This document shows positions 27,768 to 55,462 of a DNA stretch of 64,000 bases, in pieces; positions within the stretch are counted from its first letter, which is position 1; the number at the start of each line of letters is the position of its first letter. A program made the position numbers and the translations under genes. The DNA is from an uncultured Bacteroidota bacterium (GTDB taxonomy: Bacteria; Bacteroidota; Bacteroidia; Bacteroidales; UBA12481): NCBI GenBank assembly GCA_903851365.1, contig CAINOB010000001.1, forward strand, positions 1 to 64,000, given 5' to 3'. Under the pieces are notes generated by a model. It made no database searches and was not told where the DNA came from. It was given only the letters and a program-made list of their open reading frames with translations.

Positions 27768-27826
27768 TTCGTGGTTGGGGACGGGGTCCCGGCTTTCGCC
27801 GGGATGACAACTCTTACGAGGGTAAC
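27768..27826. repeat. R4 palindromic element, copy 1
   Basis: TTTCGTGGTTGGGGACGGG, then TCCCGGCTTTCGCCGGGATG, then ACAACTCTTACGAGGG. The full family consensus is about 58 bp with a central hairpin. It sits in the convergent gap between adhesin and mtnA. The rest of the gap up to 27888 shows no gene. Confidence 0.8.
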
Positions 27827-30639: not shown

Positions 30640-30945
30640 TATTATGCTCCCTGCGGTCGCTAAGAGGTCGCTTCGCTCATAAGAGGTTCGCCTGCGGCTC
30701 ACTAAAAGGCTCCGCTGCGCTCCGCTAATTATGCTCGGCTTCGCCTCGCTAAATATAGGACTGCTAAGATATACGATCTTTCTTAATTAGTGAGGCGCTA
30801 GCCGAACCTATTAGCGCGAAGCGCATATTAGGAGGCGAAGCCGACCTATTAGTGAGGCGCAGCCGAACCAATTAGCTGAGCGAAGCGAAGCATAGTTAGC
30901 GACCGCAGGGAGCATAATTAGCGGAGCGCAGCCGAGCCTATTATC
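30640..30945. repeat. Large R6 cluster between gldA-like and ispG
   Basis: About 300 bp built almost entirely from R6 units in both orientations, e.g. TTATGCTCCCTGCGGTCGCT, AATTATGCTCGGCTTCGCC, TTAGCGGAGCGCAGCCGAG. Start and end are near-mirror images (TTATTATGCTCCCTGCGGTC at 30640 and its complement at about 30900), so the block could fold into a long cruciform. A short non-repeat stretch (about 30758-30795) sits in the middle. The right end encodes the last residues and stop of ispG. No gene is in this gap. Confidence 0.8.
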
Positions 30946-32162
30946 TCCAGCAGCCTTTCTACGGCCTCCTCCTCAGCTACGTTCTTGAGAACAGCTATCT
31001 TCCCCGCATAAATATGTACTTTTCCCGGACCCGCTCCCACATATCCGTAGTCAGCATCAGCCATTTCACCCGGTCCATTTACGATGCAACCCATCACGGC
31101 GATCTTCAGTCCCGTGAGATGCGCCGTTGCCTCTTTGACTTTTTTCACTGCTTCCTGCAGTTTAAAGGTCGTTCGGCCACAACCCGGACAACTGATATAC
31201 TCGGTTCGTGTGATCCGGGCCCGCGATGCCTGCAAAATGCCATACGCCACAGGAATCTCAAATTCAGGATCTTCCGTCAACGAAACCCTGATGGTATCTC
31301 CAATTCCATCCACTAAAAGCGACCCGATCCCGATAGCCGATTTCAGCCTTCCGTCTTCCCCCTCGCCAGCCTCTGTCACCCCCAGATGCAGGGGGTAATC
31401 CATCTGCTCCTCATCCATCCTCTTAACCAGCAAACGCGTAGCTTCAACCATTATTTTTACGTTCGATGATTTCAGCGACAAAACGATATCATGAAAATTT
31501 TCTGCCTGGCAAATCCGCACCGCCTCCAGCGTAGCCTGCACCATGCCCTCGGGCGTATCCCCATATTGATCTAAAATTCTTTCCGATAAACTACCGTGAT
31601 TTGTCCCGATGCGCAGGACAGTTCCATACTCCTTACAGGTATCCAACAATGGGCGCATAATCGAGTGAAGCTGGTCCAGATAGGTATCCCCTTCAGTTGA
31701 CTTCGTGGTCAGCGACGGGGAACCCGCCTTCGCGGGGATGACAACCCTTCGATCAGACTTGATAAAGTTGCCCGGGTTGATGCGAACCTTAGCAGCAACT
31801 TTAGCTGCCTCGATAGCCACTTTTGGCGAAAAATGTACGTCGGCCACCAGTGGTATAACAACGCCCCCTCGGAGAGTTGTCATCCCCGCGAAGGCGGGGA
31901 CCCCGTCGCTGACTACGAAATCTTCCGGGTGCTCATTTATCTTTTCCTTGATCTTCTTTAACCATTCAACATCTGCCAGTGTTGGTGTTGTTATCCTGAT
32001 ATACTCCGCACCGGCCTCCACAGCACGGCGAATCTGCTCCACCTGTCCCTCGATGTCTGACGTTGGCAGATTGGTCATAGTCTGCACCCGCACCGGAAAG
32101 TTCCCGCCAAGCGGCACGCCTCCGATATTCACGACACGGGTAAGTCTTCTTGTAAAATTCAT
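30918..32162 (-). CDS. ispG: 4-hydroxy-3-methylbut-2-enyl diphosphate synthase with two in-frame R4 elements
   Basis: Fe-S enzyme of the MEP isoprenoid pathway (MEcPP to HMBPP). Start chosen at 32162 (MNFTRRLTRVVNIGGVPLGG); 13 upstream codons are not conserved-looking. Signatures: PVRVQTMTNLPT, VADVHFSPKVA, KVRINPGNF, IRVSLTEDPEFEIP, and the [4Fe-4S] site from SCPGCGRTTF (two Cys) plus VMGCIVNGPGEMADADYG (third Cys and Glu). The length is about 414 aa and the large central insertion domain expected in Bacteroides and plant enzymes is missing: EIPVAYGILQ runs straight into ITRTEYISCPGC. Two stretches, VVSDGVPAFAGMTTLRGG and RRVVIPAKAGSPSLTTKS, are translated R4 elements in opposite orientation, located before VIPLVADVHF and after INPGNF. 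The C-terminus (GSAALR-stop) comes from an R6 element. Confidence 0.92.
   Translation of the reverse strand: MNFTRRLTRVVNIGGVPLGGNFPVRVQTMTNLPTSDIEGQVEQIRRAVEAGAEYIRITTPTLADVEWLKKIKEKINEHPEDFVVSDGVPAFAGMTTLRGGVVIPLVADVHFSPKVAIEAAKVAAKVRINPGNFIKSDRRVVIPAKAGSPSLTTKSTEGDTYLDQLHSIMRPLLDTCKEYGTVLRIGTNHGSLSERILDQYGDTPEGMVQATLEAVRICQAENFHDIVLSLKSSNVKIMVEATRLLVKRMDEEQMDYPLHLGVTEAGEGEDGRLKSAIGIGSLLVDGIGDTIRVSLTEDPEFEIPVAYGILQASRARITRTEYISCPGCGRTTFKLQEAVKKVKEATAHLTGLKIAVMGCIVNGPGEMADADYGYVGAGPGKVHIYAGKIAVLKNVAEEEAVERLLEIIGSAALR
31697..31762. repeat. R4 element inside ispG, copy a
   Basis: TTCGTGGTCAGCGACGGGG, then AACCCGCCTTCGCGGGGATG and ACAACCCTTCGATCAG. It is in frame with ispG and falls in a loop after RINPGNF that varies between homologues. 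Confidence 0.85.
31862..31925. repeat. R4 element inside ispG, copy b (opposite orientation)
   Basis: The reverse complement reads TTTCGTAGTCAGCGACGGGG, TCCCCGCCTTCGCGGGGATG and ACAACTCTCCGAGGG. It is 100 bp from copy a and inverted relative to it; in frame. Confidence 0.85.
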
Positions 32163-32207
32163 GAAAATATTGATTGACCAATCAAAAGTACAACAATTCA
32201 ATCTACT

Positions 32208-35703: not shown

Positions 35704-37464
35704 ATGAATCGATACCTCATCCTGTTGATTTCAATCATGATCGCTGGCGCGATGCAAGCGCAGGACTTGAGGCATTATGAGTATCTGAGGGAAAGCATGG
35801 GAGGTGAGGAGCAGCGGAGCCGAAAGGAGGCAGATACATTAAATCATGCATCGGTCCGCGACCTGTATTTTTTTACTCAGTTGCCGCCGACTTCACCGAC
35901 CTCCATCTCGAAGAATAAATGGGTTAACAAGCTATATGACAAGGTGTTTCAGGAAAATCTGGTCCTGATTAAGCGACCAGGCTACCTGATCACCGCTGAT
36001 CCGCTGTTCGATTGCGAGCTCGGCAGCGCAAGCAATAAGCCCAACAATACCTGGTTGAACGTTAGAGGGTTTCAGGTTTACGGGAAAATAGACCTGAAGT
36101 CGGGAGACGGAAAACAATCGGAACACGTGACGCGTAACACGGAAGAAATTCCTAGTGGAGGAGCCATTACTCCTCCATTTAGACCCTCGTTCGAGTTTTA
36201 TTCAAGCTATTATGAGTCACAGATCAGGCCGCCGCGGTTTTTGGATTCCCTGGCGAGCGTGTATGGCGGGATACCGGGTCAGGGCTCTGTTTTCGTGAAA
36301 AACGGGATTTATGAGCACAGTTATGCAACGGCCTGGGTACGATATAATGCCAATAAATATTTTACGTTTGAGGCTGGCACGGGAAAGAATTTTTTCGGAA
36401 ACGGATACCGGTCGATGCTGCTTTCAGATAATGCCCGCAATGCCCCCTATTTCCGAATCGATACCAAAATCTGGCGCATTCATTATACCAATCTGTGGTG
36501 CGAATATCAGGATAACAATTATTTCGATGGGCCCCTGGGATCCTATCAGAAAAAGTACGGAGCCTTCCATTATTTATCCTATTCCGTCACCAAGCGCCTG
36601 GAAGTGGCTTTCTTTGAGGGAATTATATGGCAAGGTCGCGATAGTCTGCATAACCGGGGATTCGAAGTAGCCTACCTGAATCCGGTAATCTTTCTCCGGC
36701 CAGTGGAATGGACGCTGGGTTCCCCCGACAATGCTGTGGCCGCTCTCAACCTCTCCTATCGCTTTTTCGACGACACTTATCTCTACGGCCAATTTCTGGC
36801 CGACGACTTTCCCTTGAATCACATCAAAGCCCACGACGGATACTGGGGCAATAAGTTTGCCGGTCAGATTGGTGCGAAAACGCTTATTAAGATTCGTGAC
36901 GCGATACACGTGACCCGTGACACGAAACCCCAAGAAACACCTTCTTCCGGGTCTCACGTTACGAGTTTCGAAACGCCGAATTTTACCCCCAGTGCCCTAT
37001 ATCTGCAAACCGAACTGAATTTTGCCCGTCCGTATACCTATTCGCACTGGTCGACAAAGGAAAATTACGGACATCTGGGCCAGCCTTTAGCGCATCCCCT
37101 GGGAGCCAACTTTGTGGAATGGGTCAATTTTGCCCGTCTCAACTGGAACCGGGTTACTTTGGAAGGCCGTTACAGCCTGCTGAAATTTGGCGCCAATTAT
37201 AACGGTCAGAACTGGGGCCAGGATATTTTTCTCTCCTATGACAACCACGTGAATGAGCTCGGCAATTATATCGGTCAGGGATTAGCCACCACCGTAACCT
37301 ACAAAACCATCACCGCCTCCTACCTGCTCAATCCGGCATCCCTGCTGAATATCTTCCTCTCCTTATCAGATCGTAATCAAGTCTCCGAGGCAGGCACCAA
37401 CCATAGTTTGTGGTTCACTTTCGGCGTTAGGAACTCGCTGAGAAATTTGTACTATGATTATTAG
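35704..37464 (+). CDS. RemB-like outer-membrane beta-barrel protein with in-frame repeats
   Basis: A 586-residue protein with signal peptide (MNRYLILLISIMIAGAMQAQ) and alternating aromatic/polar beta strands. AGTGKNFFGNGYRSMLLSDNARNAPYF and IWRIHYTNLWCEYQD resemble the Bacteroidota family that includes the gliding/capsule protein RemB and is related to Wzi capsule-assembly proteins. It is 29 bp after the UDP-sugar dehydrogenase, so probably co-transcribed. Two stretches are translated repeats: about residues 139-161 (HVTRNTEEIPSGGAITPPF, R3 plus a GGAGGAG hairpin) and about 398-423 (VTRDTKPQETPSSGSHVTS, R3). Both would fall in loops between strands. Confidence 0.7.
   Translation: MNRYLILLISIMIAGAMQAQDLRHYEYLRESMGGEEQRSRKEADTLNHASVRDLYFFTQLPPTSPTSISKNKWVNKLYDKVFQENLVLIKRPGYLITADPLFDCELGSASNKPNNTWLNVRGFQVYGKIDLKSGDGKQSEHVTRNTEEIPSGGAITPPFRPSFEFYSSYYESQIRPPRFLDSLASVYGGIPGQGSVFVKNGIYEHSYATAWVRYNANKYFTFEAGTGKNFFGNGYRSMLLSDNARNAPYFRIDTKIWRIHYTNLWCEYQDNNYFDGPLGSYQKKYGAFHYLSYSVTKRLEVAFFEGIIWQGRDSLHNRGFEVAYLNPVIFLRPVEWTLGSPDNAVAALNLSYRFFDDTYLYGQFLADDFPLNHIKAHDGYWGNKFAGQIGAKTLIKIRDAIHVTRDTKPQETPSSGSHVTSFETPNFTPSALYLQTELNFARPYTYSHWSTKENYGHLGQPLAHPLGANFVEWVNFARLNWNRVTLEGRYSLLKFGANYNGQNWGQDIFLSYDNHVNELGNYIGQGLATTVTYKTITASYLLNPASLLNIFLSLSDRNQVSEAGTNHSLWFTFGVRNSLRNLYYDY
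36120..36185. repeat. R3 plus GGAGGAG hairpin inside the RemB-like gene
   Basis: AACACGTGACGCGTAACACG is followed by TGGAGGAGCCATTACTCCTC. The second part resembles 45929-45975. In frame. Confidence 0.65.
36893..36972. repeat. R3 element inside the RemB-like gene
   Basis: CGTGACGCGATACACGTGAC and CCGTGACACGAAACCCC, then GTCTCACGTTACGAGTTTCG: inverted R3 units (GTGACxCGxxACACG / CACGTTACGAG) with in-frame coding sequence. Confidence 0.7.
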
Positions 37465-37482
37465 AACGCACACCTGATGAAT

Positions 37483-38008
37483 GCCGCGGTACGGGACGGG
37501 GTCCCGACTTTCGTCGGGATGACAAGGCTTCGAGGGACGAACAATGTTTGGTTAAGAAGTCAGAGGGATGAAGTCAGGTCTCGCCTATCAGGGTTGGCTT
37601 TATCAATTAAGCAATCTTTCCAAGCACGTCTCCATTCTTTCAGTTGTTTTTCTCTTGAAATAGCCTTATCGCAGTATTGAAAAAATTCATAATAAACCAA
37701 TTTGGTTAAGTTATATCTGGAACAATAGCCAGGATTCAATTTTTCGCGATGTTCAATTACCCTTCGCTTAAGATTATTTGTAATGCCAATATACAAGACC
37801 CGGTTATTTTCTGTGGCCATTATGTAAACATAAAACTGATAGATTTTCATTTATTCCTTTTTCAAGCATAGATGCATAAATGCACCCTAAAAGGAATTTT
37901 TCACTATTTTTTTTTGAAGCAGATGCTGTGCACCGCAATACTTCGTCACAATCAAAGCCTTGTTATCCCGACGAAAGTCGGGACCCCGTCCCTGACCACG
38001 AAAGTAAA
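37483..38008. mobile_element. Candidate GIY-YIG / R4 palindrome cassette
   Basis: Two R4 elements in opposite orientation lie at about 37483-37542 and 37950-38008. The core GGGACGGGGTCCCGACTTTC plus GTCGGGAT-ACAAGGCTT matches at 36 of 37 positions between them, closer than either is to any other copy in the window. They bracket a single gene for a GIY-YIG nuclease. No DDE, HUH or recombinase gene is present, so this is not a normal insertion sequence. The reading as a mobile cassette is inference. Confidence 0.5.
37560..37850 (-). CDS. GIY-YIG single-domain endonuclease
   Basis: A 96-residue stand-alone GIY-YIG domain (UPF0213/YhbQ-like). Catalytic features: YQFYVYIM (first motif), RVLYIGITNNLKRRVIEHRE (YIG motif with Tyr, Gly, downstream Arg and His), a conserved YYEFF and the metal-binding Glu in ISREKQLKEWRRAWK. 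Such proteins nick or cut DNA, but their physiological role is largely unknown. It is flanked on both sides by R4 palindromic elements in inverted orientation. It is not obviously co-transcribed with the NagB-PIG-L gene upstream on the same strand (168 bp away with an R4 between). Confidence 0.88.
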   Translation of the reverse strand: MKIYQFYVYIMATENNRVLYIGITNNLKRRVIEHREKLNPGYCSRYNLTKLVYYEFFQYCDKAISREKQLKEWRRAWKDCLIDKANPDRRDLTSSL

Positions 38009-38018
38009 ACAGAGCAAT

Positions 38019-40403
38019 TTACTCCGTCCTCCGCGCCAGCTCCGAAGCCTCTATTAAAAACTCGTCAACCGTGAGCTCCTTGTAAAAGATCAACCCATGC
38101 GTTGCCCGAACCAGCGGACTCTGGTTCTCGTAGAAATAATCCTTGCCAAGCAACAGCTGGATCTCCTTTAGCTGGTCCACCCAAACTTTCTGGGCCAGAT
38201 CGCAGAATGGCCCGTCAAACTCCGGACTTGGAAACGAAGCATCCACCTGGCTCAGATAACATTGCCTGAAACTATTTTTGAGGACTGCCAGACTGTTCAG
38301 CGATACCGGCAGGTAAACATTTGCCTCCGCCGGATGATACCGGTACCACACATTCCGATAGCCGATAATCCTCATGCCTTCCGTCTCTCGATCTTCTGTC
38401 TCTCGTCTCTCTTCGTCTCTCAGTCTTTTTAAAGCGGCCGCCGTCGCCTGTAACACCTTGTAATGTGTATCCGGACCGCTCCCCTCGGGATCCATGGTCA
38501 CACTGATGATATCCGGCTTAATCGACTTCAGCAGATCGAGAATAGGCTTAACATCGCGCTCCTCCTCCGGTTGTTCCGTGAAGATATCGCCCTTGTAAAA
38601 TCCAAGCCTCAGATGATGAACATCCTTTACCTGGATGCCCGAATGTGCCCATACCAGCTCCTCCTCAAATTCACGGATCATCCCCTTGAGCTGCTGTATT
38701 TCAGGCGGATTTTTCTCCCCGTCGTAACTGTGATGCATCAGTTTTATCACATCACCAATTGTTTTTTTAAGCTGATCAATATCTGATAATTGCCAGATCT
38801 TCACCATACAACGAACGATGCGGTGACTGAGTCCGCGGTATTTTCCCAATTCATCTCGTGCCGCCACTTTATTCAGATAATGACTCACATCCTTGTCCCA
38901 TTTAAACAGATATCCGCTGGTAAAAAAGTTGGGATAGCTGAGCATCTGCACCTCGCCCTTTTCAATCAGCTTCAATGTAAACTCCAAACGATCAATCAGA
39001 TATCGATTGCTTAAGGCAGTAAATCCTGATGTGGCAACGGCAAAATGCACGCTGTTTCCGGCCGAACGCAGCTGCCTGTTCACCAATGGCATCAGGCCCA
39101 GCATAATATCATCGTGATGCGGACCGGTGTGGAGGATGACTTTATTCTCATGACGTTGCAAGCCGCGGGCCAGACGGAGCTTGGCTTCTTCGATCACGGA
39201 AGGGATTCGAAGGAGAAGATCGGACTCAGAAGGTACCCACCCCCCGGCCCCCTCCCTTAAAAAGGGATGGGGAGTCTGCACTGAATTTTCCTCGGTGCCT
39301 CTTGCCCTTCCTTGTTTCAGGGAGGGGTTGGGGTGGGTACTTCCCAGGATTTTGTGCGCATAGATATTGTTCTCCTCGCAGTACTTCAGCACCGTCCGCA
39401 TACTCTTCCCGATCGTCCACTCTCCCGAATTAAAGTATCGTTCCTGCACATCCCTCAGCTGGCTGGCTGCACCTGCCGTAAGGTAGAATCGTGCATTGGG
39501 CAGTTTCTGCAGCACCGAACCCGGATATTGTACCGATGGTTCGTGTTCGATAGCCGCTTTGACAATCGGGGCCTTGGTTTCACCGGCAGCAAAAATGATC
39601 GCAACTGCATCGGGATTCATGGTGATAGTTCCCAAACCGATAGTAATCACGTGCCGTTTCCCGGATACTTCGATACCACCCAGATCGCCTGCTGCGGCCG
39701 CCTGAGTAGAATAATTAGTCGGGCTCAGACGGGTGGTTGAATGATGATCGCTCCCCTTGATATTAAATGCGATATGCCCATCGGGACCGATCCCGCCCAG
39801 AAAAAATCCGATGCCGCCCAGATCGCGGATCTGCTGCTCCCGGTCCATGCACCACGAGTCGATCATGAATATTGCCTTTTGCTGCATCTCTTCTAGATGG
39901 CTGGCCGGCTCACGATGTCTCAGCGTGAGGTCGATAGTGAGGTCGGGAAAAATTTGAGAGTAGTGGCAAGGTACCTCCCCATTTATAAAGGGGGGGTTGG
40001 GGGAGGTCAATGGAATCTCATCTGAGTTGATCAGCAAAGCCTTATCCAGATCTAGTACTAACTCTTTGATATAGTATTCTTTAACATAATGACAAAAGCT
40101 GTTATGCTGATTGGGATTGATCGGATAGAAATCATCCATCTGCACAAAGGTGAGGCCATGGAGCGAGGGTGCTCCCTTTTCCTGTAGCAGTTTTTTTGTC
40201 CAGCTGATAAAGTGCTCGGGCGTTTTGCCTGTTGGTAAAGAGATCACGCCATTCGGGTTTTCACTTACCCACTCCAGGAATCGCCGCGCAGTGAGCAGTC
40301 CTAGCTCGGGGAAATTGTCGACGACGATGTAGGGGATACGGCCGGTTTGGTTAAGATACCCTGAGCGAGCCAGGTATTCGGATTCAACTTTTGAGCTTTT
40401 CAT
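38019..40403 (-). CDS. NagB-like deaminase / PIG-L deacetylase fusion with three in-frame repeats
   Basis: A 794-residue bifunctional-looking protein. Residues about 20-345 form a glucosamine-6-phosphate deaminase/isomerase domain (SLPTGKTPEHF, FVQMDDFYPI with catalytic Asp, GGIGPDGHIAFN with His). Residues about 415-790 form a PIG-L/LmbE-type deacetylase domain with zinc motif TGPHHDDIMLG and later DPEGSGPDTHYKV. Bacteroidota have this fusion, about 660 residues as I recall; the extra length is largely three translated repeats: PLTSPNPPFINGEVP (R5), HPNPSLKQGRARG...PFLREGAGGWV (two R5), and DEERRETEDRETEG (R2). All catalytic residues are intact. Likely role: amino-sugar catabolism or recycling, supplying fructose-6-phosphate and interlinked with the amino-sugar polysaccharide genes around it. 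Confidence 0.85.
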   Translation of the reverse strand: MKSSKVESEYLARSGYLNQTGRIPYIVVDNFPELGLLTARRFLEWVSENPNGVISLPTGKTPEHFISWTKKLLQEKGAPSLHGLTFVQMDDFYPINPNQHNSFCHYVKEYYIKELVLDLDKALLINSDEIPLTSPNPPFINGEVPCHYSQIFPDLTIDLTLRHREPASHLEEMQQKAIFMIDSWCMDREQQIRDLGGIGFFLGGIGPDGHIAFNIKGSDHHSTTRLSPTNYSTQAAAAGDLGGIEVSGKRHVITIGLGTITMNPDAVAIIFAAGETKAPIVKAAIEHEPSVQYPGSVLQKLPNARFYLTAGAASQLRDVQERYFNSGEWTIGKSMRTVLKYCEENNIYAHKILGSTHPNPSLKQGRARGTEENSVQTPHPFLREGAGGWVPSESDLLLRIPSVIEEAKLRLARGLQRHENKVILHTGPHHDDIMLGLMPLVNRQLRSAGNSVHFAVATSGFTALSNRYLIDRLEFTLKLIEKGEVQMLSYPNFFTSGYLFKWDKDVSHYLNKVAARDELGKYRGLSHRIVRCMVKIWQLSDIDQLKKTIGDVIKLMHHSYDGEKNPPEIQQLKGMIREFEEELVWAHSGIQVKDVHHLRLGFYKGDIFTEQPEEERDVKPILDLLKSIKPDIISVTMDPEGSGPDTHYKVLQATAAALKRLRDEERRETEDRETEGMRIIGYRNVWYRYHPAEANVYLPVSLNSLAVLKNSFRQCYLSQVDASFPSPEFDGPFCDLAQKVWVDQLKEIQLLLGKDYFYENQSPLVRATHGLIFYKELTVDEFLIEASELARRTE
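38374..38428. repeat. R2 element inside the NagB-PIG-L gene
   Basis: CTTCCGTCTCTCGATCTTCT then GTCTCTCGTCTCTCTTCGTC: degenerate GACGAGAGACAGAAGATCG units on the coding strand, read as DEERRETEDRETEG in frame. Confidence 0.75.
39228..39345. repeat. Tandem R5 pair inside the NagB-PIG-L gene
   Basis: Two R5 hairpins, CCCCTCCCTTAAAAAGGGAT (about 39250) and TTCCTTGTTTCAGGGAGGGG (about 39305), in a shared GGTACCCACCCC / GGGGTGGGTACTTCC frame; the outer flanks are themselves complementary. The element lies in the linker between the two enzyme domains. Confidence 0.8.
39966..40013. repeat. R5 element inside the NagB domain
   Basis: GGTACCTCCCCATTTATAAA followed by GGGGGGGTTGGGGGAGGTC. In frame, read as PLTSPNPPFINGEVP. 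Confidence 0.8.
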
Positions 40404-42037: not shown

Positions 42038-42175
42038 ATTTCGTGGTATGCGACGGGGTCCCGACTTTCGTCGGGATGACACTTCTATCGATGGTTCTTT
42101 CGTTTTTCGATCTTTCTTTTGTAAATCGATCTTCGTCTTCTGTCTTCTGTCTATTGTCTTTCTTTCGTTCTCGGT
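42038..42175. repeat. R4 element followed by an R2 tract
   Basis: R4 copy at 42038-42098 (TTTCGTGGTATGCGACGGGG, TCCCGACTTTCGTCGGGATG, ACACTTCTATCGATGG). Then pyrimidine-rich R2-like sequence (TCTTCGTCTTCTGTCTTCTG) up to the stop of the next gene. No gene is in 41967-42175. Confidence 0.8.
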
Positions 42176-55407: not shown

Positions 55408-55462
55408 TTCGTTGTTAGGGACGAGATCCCCGCCTCCGCGGGGATGACACCTCTGACGATGG
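55408..55462. repeat. R4 element at the 3' end of the GT2 gene
   Basis: TTTCGTTGTTAGGGACGAGA, TCCCCGCCTCCGCGGGGATG, ACACCTCTGACGATGG. It supplies the stop codon and last residues of the glycosyltransferase. Confidence 0.8.

Follow-up and report, generated by a model that had tools for sequence, protein, structure and literature searches.

The window analysed here is a stretch of 64,000 nucleotides from an uncultured Bacteroidota bacterium of the lineage UBA12481 (contig CAINOB010000001.1). At 37485-38000 it carries a small gene enclosed by two inverted copies of a palindromic repeat, R4. The left copy (37485-37533, core 37495-37524) is on the forward strand and the right copy (37952-38000, core 37961-37990) on the reverse strand, each with its TGTC "head" pointing toward the gene. 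The two arms, 49 nt each and 418 nt apart, are 90% complementary, and their cores are identical at 36 of 37 positions; the opposite-orientation pair of the original prediction is thus recovered by a comparison of inverted arms. The sole plausible gene within this bracket is an open reading frame of 96 aa on the reverse strand (37560-37850), which matches the GIY-YIG domain PF01541 with E = 2.4e-17 and contains no other recognised domain, in agreement with the earlier statement that the bracket encloses only a 96-residue GIY-YIG nuclease. The gene is preceded on its own strand by a conserved leader, TTCC(A/T)TTT..GCATCTAT (37868-37896). This leader, TTTCCATTT...GCATCTAT, occurs in eight of nine nuclease genes of the genus and in four of the 11 four-helix-bundle genes examined, with its last part 24-30 nt upstream of the start codon; a promoter-like leader of one kind is therefore common to two unrelated bracketed genes. 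The left neighbour of the bracket (35704-37464) has no Pfam match, and the right neighbour (38019-40403) has a sub-threshold match to PIG-L.

In an alignment of 13 sequences, Tyr9, Tyr20, Arg30 and Glu67 of the nuclease are invariant and Gly22 is nearly so; we take the four invariant residues to be the catalytic positions of the GIY-YIG family. The AlphaFold model of the protein (pLDDT 90.5) has as its best match in PDB the UPF0213 protein BH0048 (E = 7.8e-4), followed by Slx1 (E = 0.025 or worse), and the domain with its Tyr, Arg and Glu residues, together with the fold match, places the protein in the GIY-YIG superfamily. UPF0213/COG2827 proteins, which include YhbQ of E. coli and YazA of B. 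subtilis, and Slx1 are thus the closest solved folds, yet by sequence BH0048 is not a significant match (E = 0.38), and Slx1 is far longer, with a second domain that the window protein lacks. The GIY-YIG nuclease fold is known from group I intron enzymes and from UvrC. A group I intron homing endonuclease was considered and rejected, the only subfamily match being weak (18.1 bits vs a cut-off of 56.05 bits). Phage cargo was likewise rejected, as the phages collection contained no relative of the nuclease.

The original prediction had six other R4 copies in the window, all standing alone. A search with the 24-nt core and up to 7 mismatches finds five, at 27786, 31720, 31878, 42058 and 55426 (27780-27809, 31714-31743, 42052-42081 and 55420-55449 on the forward strand and 31878-31907 on the reverse strand), and a looser rule might add one. 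Three of these are solitary; the copies at 31714-31743 and 31878-31907 form a second inverted pair inside the ispG/gcpE gene (30918-32201, reverse strand). Both are translated in frame (DGVPAFAGMTT and VIPAKAGSPS) and resemble the intragenic REPs that have been described; a further R4 within an open frame was seen elsewhere in the same genome (G000:C33).

In the complete set of 5,229,094 bases of this genome, the R4 pattern with up to 2 mismatches has 77 matches, and the same pattern read backwards has none. Five GIY-YIG genes are present, three of them stand-alone (open frames of 96-100 aa) and two long (608 and 459 aa). Each of the three stand-alone genes sits inside an inverted head-in pair of R4 copies, and the stem type is identical at both ends of each unit and different between the three units; no R4 is found within 1.5 kb of either long gene. 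Under uniform placement, the probability that a gene has both correctly oriented R4 neighbours within 150 bp is 1.2e-6. There are four head-in R4 pairs with a spacing of 300-700 bp, where uniform placement expects 0.11; three of them hold the stand-alone GIY-YIG genes, and the fourth, with unmatched stems, holds another gene, presumably FKBP/SlyD-like by our reading of its sequence. Copy number, these placement odds and the random-placement controls given below rule out a chance pairing of nuclease and R4. Three R4 copies folded as single-stranded DNA each give a hairpin with a 7-bp stem and a 4-nt loop, whose stability exceeds that of shuffled sequences only modestly (z of -1.5, -2.9 and -1.7). 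The stem itself covaries: among 43 distinct R4 sequences, 38 cells are changed on both sides vs 15.2 in shuffles, and 0-3 cells when the pairing is slid as a control.

The original prediction had suggested testing whether R4-like palindromes flank stand-alone GIY-YIG genes more often than expected, and comparison across bacteria shows that such repeats do. In a first look at 60 related genomes, 15 of 26 loci whose open frame was shorter than 320 aa had an inverted flank-to-flank match with a score of at least 28. Another 26 gene places yielded 15 with an inverted flank match, and 30 further Bacteroidota loci yielded 14 at the same score; of nine stand-alone GIY-YIG genes that belong to other clades and come from repeat-rich genomes, six had such a match. 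Long GIY-YIG genes gave none (0/8 in the first look and 0/12 elsewhere), and a link of the repeats to any GIY-YIG domain is thereby rejected. A protein-only search over many phyla was then represented by the best 80 of at least 532 relatives, 77 of which had flanks long enough for comparison (3 were too short): a score of at least 30 was reached by 39 of the 77 loci vs 15 of 2528 random placements of the same size in the same loci, and 27 of the 39 have YGTCA in both copies.

The typical repeat of these relatives starts with YGTCAT and continues into a hairpin with AT(C) as its closing sequence. Under a strict definition of this hairpin, the density is 3.0 per kb within 150 bp of the gene and falls below 0.1 per kb at distances over 600 bp, compared with 0.01 per kb in shuffled DNA. 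A looser YGTCA-hairpin rule was applied to 107 of 120 loci, namely those with 300 bp of flank on both sides (two genomes being represented twice, L060/L012 and L100/L222). Under this rule hairpins lie on both sides of 67 of the 107 genes and on at least one side of 93, vs 9 and 186, respectively, of 1864 random placements, and their density falls from 8.1 per kb within 100 bp to 0.22-0.25 per kb beyond 2 kb. Related genes with no such repeat nearby, the first kind of counter-example named in the original prediction, do exist. At 40 of the 107 loci one flank or both have no hairpin inside 300 bp, and at 14 neither flank has one; nine of the 40 and six of the 14 belong to the genus of the window, and these nine are counted as misses because the rule demands an outer A-T pair, which R4 lacks. 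Outside this genus the corresponding numbers are 31/98 and 8/98. Of the 67 loci with both sides occupied, 40 have their nearest repeats head-out, 8 have them head-in and 19 are mixed; the genus of the window is head-in, and the unit thus has no single fixed polarity.

It might be argued that nuclease and repeat have no specific link, and that small genes and palindromes simply end up in the same intergenic space or at the same recombination hot spots. Inverted repeats also surround four-helix-bundle genes (21 of 27 loci at a score of at least 28), and one of these genes occupies the window site in a related genome, G006. Their repeats nevertheless differ in kind, being short-period arrays, and only 1 of 25 such genes has YGTCA hairpins on both sides and 2 on any side; the figures for 20 long GIY-YIG genes (frames of 459-689 aa, taken as UvrC or DNA polymerase III epsilon by length alone) are 0 and 3. 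Together with the random placements within the nuclease loci, of which 9 in 1864 were bracketed, this makes such an incidental association highly improbable, and we return to a specific pairing of nuclease and repeat.

Several other bracketed genes were noticed in the course of the comparison. The four-helix-bundle genes of relatives (PF05635; L268-L296) have inverted arrays of imperfect 7-10 bp units on both sides. At one locus (L046, G034:C20) three GIY-YIG genes follow one another in tandem at a spacing of 354 bp; each has palindromes and, as judged by eye, a sequence like the 3' end of a tRNA. Four loci from other GIY-YIG clades (L035, L036, L039 and L043) have exact or near-exact inverted 16-25-mers, for example TTTACCCCGTGAGATA, near both gene ends. 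At four more loci from other GIY-YIG clades of the order (L018, L020, L026 and L042), the bracketing palindromes could be terminators.

For the bracket repeats of the nuclease family, plain terminator hairpins are not favoured, because the two ends of a locus tend to be alike and the repeats vary from one locus to the next. The two ends were compared at 75 loci bearing hairpins left and right (L209 was left out, and all repeats start with a paired A by rule): the nearest left and right repeats have a mean similarity of 0.48, vs 0.19 (sd 0.02) after permutation of the right flanks. Repeat and nuclease also vary together. Among 74 of these loci (L222 was left out as well), assigned by their titles to 17 groups that are phyla or proteobacterial classes, nuclease identity and repeat similarity rise together between groups (rho = 0.21); this value is reached in 0 of 5000 free permutations and in 80 of 5000 permutations within groups, so that part of the signal may be phylogenetic. 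Near-identical repeats are found in 6 of 337 locus pairs with nucleases less than 50% identical and in 8 of 26 pairs with nucleases more than 70% identical. The nucleases of a Zixiibacteriota record (L087) and a Chloroflexales record (L092) are 88% identical and have related repeats, and some locus pairs such as this one point to a possible transfer between phyla. The left/right, covariation and interphylum comparisons all cover loci from outside the genus of the window, as R4 falls outside the hairpin rule.

The original prediction had also called for a search for empty orthologous sites, and two were found. On plasmid AZO_p3 of Azospirillum lipoferum 4B, a GIY-YIG gene whose product is 48% identical to the window protein separates sufB from sufC and has a dimer of CGTC hairpins at either end. 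In A. ramasamyi, A. oryzae and Azospirillum sp. B510 (95-97% identity) sufB adjoins sufC with no such unit, the gap in B510 holding a different short palindrome. A different GIY-YIG gene with matched head-out hairpins lies between sufB and sufC in Shinella sp. PSBB067, and it seems that this gap takes up different small genes. On a Sphingomonas parapaucimobilis plasmid (NZ_CP155753, H69) a DUF559 gene is annotated under the match that spans sufB to sufC. The second empty site is in the genus of the window: at site 3 of G001, an R4 and the truncated tail of an inverted R4 lie between two genes, and this dimer is missing from G004, where both flanks can be aligned. The left flank of the same site in G000, the genome of the window, carries R4, a nuclease and R4; the right-hand gene there differs from that of G001 and G004, so that this is not a clean empty-site comparison. 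No clear target-site duplication is seen at the A. lipoferum or the G001/G004 junctions, which have diverged. In a Sinorhizobium meliloti record (CP090106, L363), the left flank of the gene contains the end of a second, near-identical GIY-YIG frame and the same hairpin, which by eye looks as if units were joined in tandem.

The contents of a site also change. At the window site the nucleases of G000 and G001 are only 60% identical and their R4 stems differ, despite 89-90% identity of the adjacent PIG-L protein, and the G001 nuclease is closer (73%) to a gene at another site in G004. In G006 the place is taken by the four-helix-bundle gene mentioned above, among inverted repeats of another kind (G006:C173). 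At a second site the nuclease is nearly the same in G000 and G001 (88%) and different in G006 (52%). R4 positions are fairly stable between congeners: the copy at 42058 is kept at the orthologous place in G006 with a different stem sequence, and of the two in ispG/gcpE the one at 31878 is kept in G004 and the one at 31720 is absent from the same place. Several R4 sites are thus old, being conserved between congeners, and movement would accordingly be slow.

Such fairly stable positions are what one might see if the nuclease were of the Ssn type reported from Neisseria and had no mobility of its own. It would then be kept for cutting single-stranded DNA at the repeats, whether this DNA is incoming or being replicated, thereby shaping recombination or transformation; the repeats near the gene would be sites of the nuclease or serve self-regulation, and the repeats would have spread by other means. 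The gonococcal homologue of the window protein (51% identity over 88 aa), encoded among dRS3-like repeats and with the function reported for Ssn, would fit the same idea. Less easily accommodated are the presence and absence of whole units as discrete inserts, the different nucleases at the same place in different species and the patchy distribution of the gene, which at E <= 1e-15 is found in 141 of 296 Bacteroidota genomes. We regard this explanation as unlikely, and continue with a unit that moves as a whole.

This distribution, obtained with a profile of 13 sequences and with up to 10 copies per genome, can be set against the number of repeats. Excluding the genome of the window, which leaves 295 genomes, the median number of matches to a generic repeat pattern is 23.5 in the 140 genomes with the nuclease and 8 in the 155 without it (Mann-Whitney, 2e-17), and among the 124 genomes of the 15 genera in which some members have the nuclease and others lack it, the difference is reached by none of 20000 permutations; because the generic pattern catches only some stem types, its matches are to be read as indices. 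In the genus of the window, five genomes with the clade nuclease have 73, 34, 21, 132 and 38 R4 copies (G000, G001, G003, G004 and G006), and two with no match to a stand-alone GIY-YIG gene have 0 (G002) and 2 (G005). Repeat-rich genomes without the nuclease, the second kind of counter-example foreseen, nonetheless occur, and the load follows the nuclease overall, not in every case. G007, a MAG that is 92% complete, has 190 R4 copies and only a GIY-YIG gene of another clade, and at least 30 generic matches each are present in 12 Bacteroidota genomes without a profile match. A search of seven of these 12 with PF01541 detected stand-alone GIY-YIG genes of another kind in four (G270, G073, G308 and G287), and in the repeat-rich G061, G192 and G302 no stand-alone GIY-YIG gene, only long ones. 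G061 (100% complete) has 413 matches to the generic CGTC pattern and none in two 20-kb stretches, so that the matches may be clustered. Conversely, five genomes with at least three nucleases have few matches (G116 and G128 one each, G168 and G247 two each, G234 11), and G010, from another genus, has a relative of the nuclease and one R4.

Those exceptions bear on the idea that the nuclease is a passenger, which homes into pre-existing repeats spread by another agent such as an HUH enzyme, the bracket being its homing target. Genomes rich in repeats and without the nuclease would be natural under that idea, as would different nucleases in the same bracketed site and the G001 orthologue of site 3, where R4 and the truncated inverted tail stand with no nuclease between them. 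It accounts poorly for a repeat load that tracks the nuclease within genera and for the tendency of each locus to have flanking repeats of a single matched type; moreover, a 2013 survey of CGTC repeats associates no transposase with them (PMC3733652). Homing into foreign repeats is, in our estimate, quite unlikely. We prefer to see 37485-38000 as a single insertion unit in which a gene for a small GIY-YIG endonuclease lies between inverted copies of its own target, R4, and we would put the probability of this at roughly 60%.

The way in which such a unit would work can be outlined. The nuclease would recognise the YGTC-tagged repeat, most probably once it has folded into a hairpin in single-stranded DNA such as arises on the lagging strand, in transformation or in repair intermediates, and would cut at the repeat or beside it. 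The unit could then be copied elsewhere, or the nuclease swapped between places, through repair or through recombination between repeats, and the short R4 copies would be non-autonomous or residual targets. As far as comparison of genomes goes, the bracket, the matching of its ends, the covariation, the presence and absence of units or repeat dimers at conserved sites and the higher load with the nuclease are all established, and because of them the picture of autonomous and non-autonomous copies appears to fit.

R4 is best compared with the CGTC-tagged REPs defined by Di Nocera et al. in 2013, which include dRS3 of Neisseriae and two elements of Rickettsia (PMC3733652). As described there, these repeats have a YGTC tag beside a hairpin, with TGTC as a listed variant, and are dispersed and partly intragenic, all of which is true of R4; it reads TGTCATCCC..., with the tag as an unpaired end. 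The stem and tail are different: CGTC REPs have a stem of 8-9 bp, a paired A/T at its start and a CCA-like tail, whereas R4 has a 7-bp stem, an unpaired first A and the tail CCCCGTC. We therefore call R4 CGTC-like, and not a member of the class, since the tag fits and stem and tail do not. Repeats beside the relatives from other genera, unlike R4, do have the paired A at the start, as the rule demands. According to the same paper, CGTC repeats "apparently lack a dedicated transposase", and the means of their spread is left open; CGTC-1 elements are equated with dRS3 in Neisseriae (PMC3733652). GIY-YIG has no occurrence in that paper (PMC3733652), and no connection of GIY-YIG genes with REPs appeared among the titles and openings of abstracts listed in a literature search.

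The gonococcal homologue introduced above is flanked on both sides by CGTCATTCCCGCG..CGGGAAT repeats that resemble the CGTC-1/dRS3 elements, so that the window nuclease is homologous to a Neisseria GIY-YIG gene among dRS3-type repeats, as expected for a member of the Ssn family. The gonococcal protein is presumably Ssn itself. Chenal and colleagues reportedly named this family from Neisseria in 2025 (Nat Commun) as site-specific single-strand GIY-YIG nucleases, whose repeats, NTS, reportedly occur in hundreds of copies and which reportedly have thousands of homologues with matching target sequences. Ssn is reported to act on transformation, and reportedly is not presented as a mobile unit. The Neisseria pair of Ssn and NTS is like that of the window, a GIY-YIG enzyme with a many-copy repeat, and the window unit is probably another Ssn-type pair. 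If this is right, the pairing of enzyme and repeat is probably already known and not new, and the evidence for a mobile unit (empty sites, turnover of sites and the link of load to nuclease) may be the advance over Ssn.

A broader reading, which we offer tentatively and hold at a little under even odds, is that CGTC-type REPs have a dedicated Ssn-like nuclease: this would form an autonomous intergenic unit, independent of HUH enzymes, that exchanges its nuclease, leaves lone repeats as offspring, passes between phyla and sometimes enters operons such as sufB-sufC. CGTC-type REPs and their relatives are found in many phyla, and with a nuclease inside matched repeats and with empty sites at hand, their spread becomes testable with a small protein and a synthetic hairpin. 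If true, a large class of short intergenic and genic repeats in many phyla would be explained, and the GIY-YIG fold would stand at the heart of a REP-like system.

The closest parallel in way of working is the RAYT/REPtron, to which the original prediction had likened the unit, with a different class of enzyme. In both, an enzyme gene lies between inverted copies of a short dispersed palindrome, and lone copies are scattered elsewhere. The likeness in bracket and dispersed copies holds for the window, and stops at the enzyme, which in the RAYT/REPtron is an HUH tyrosine transposase and here a GIY-YIG nuclease. Overall, the unit would work as a REP/RAYT system in which a GIY-YIG enzyme has taken the place of the HUH transposase.
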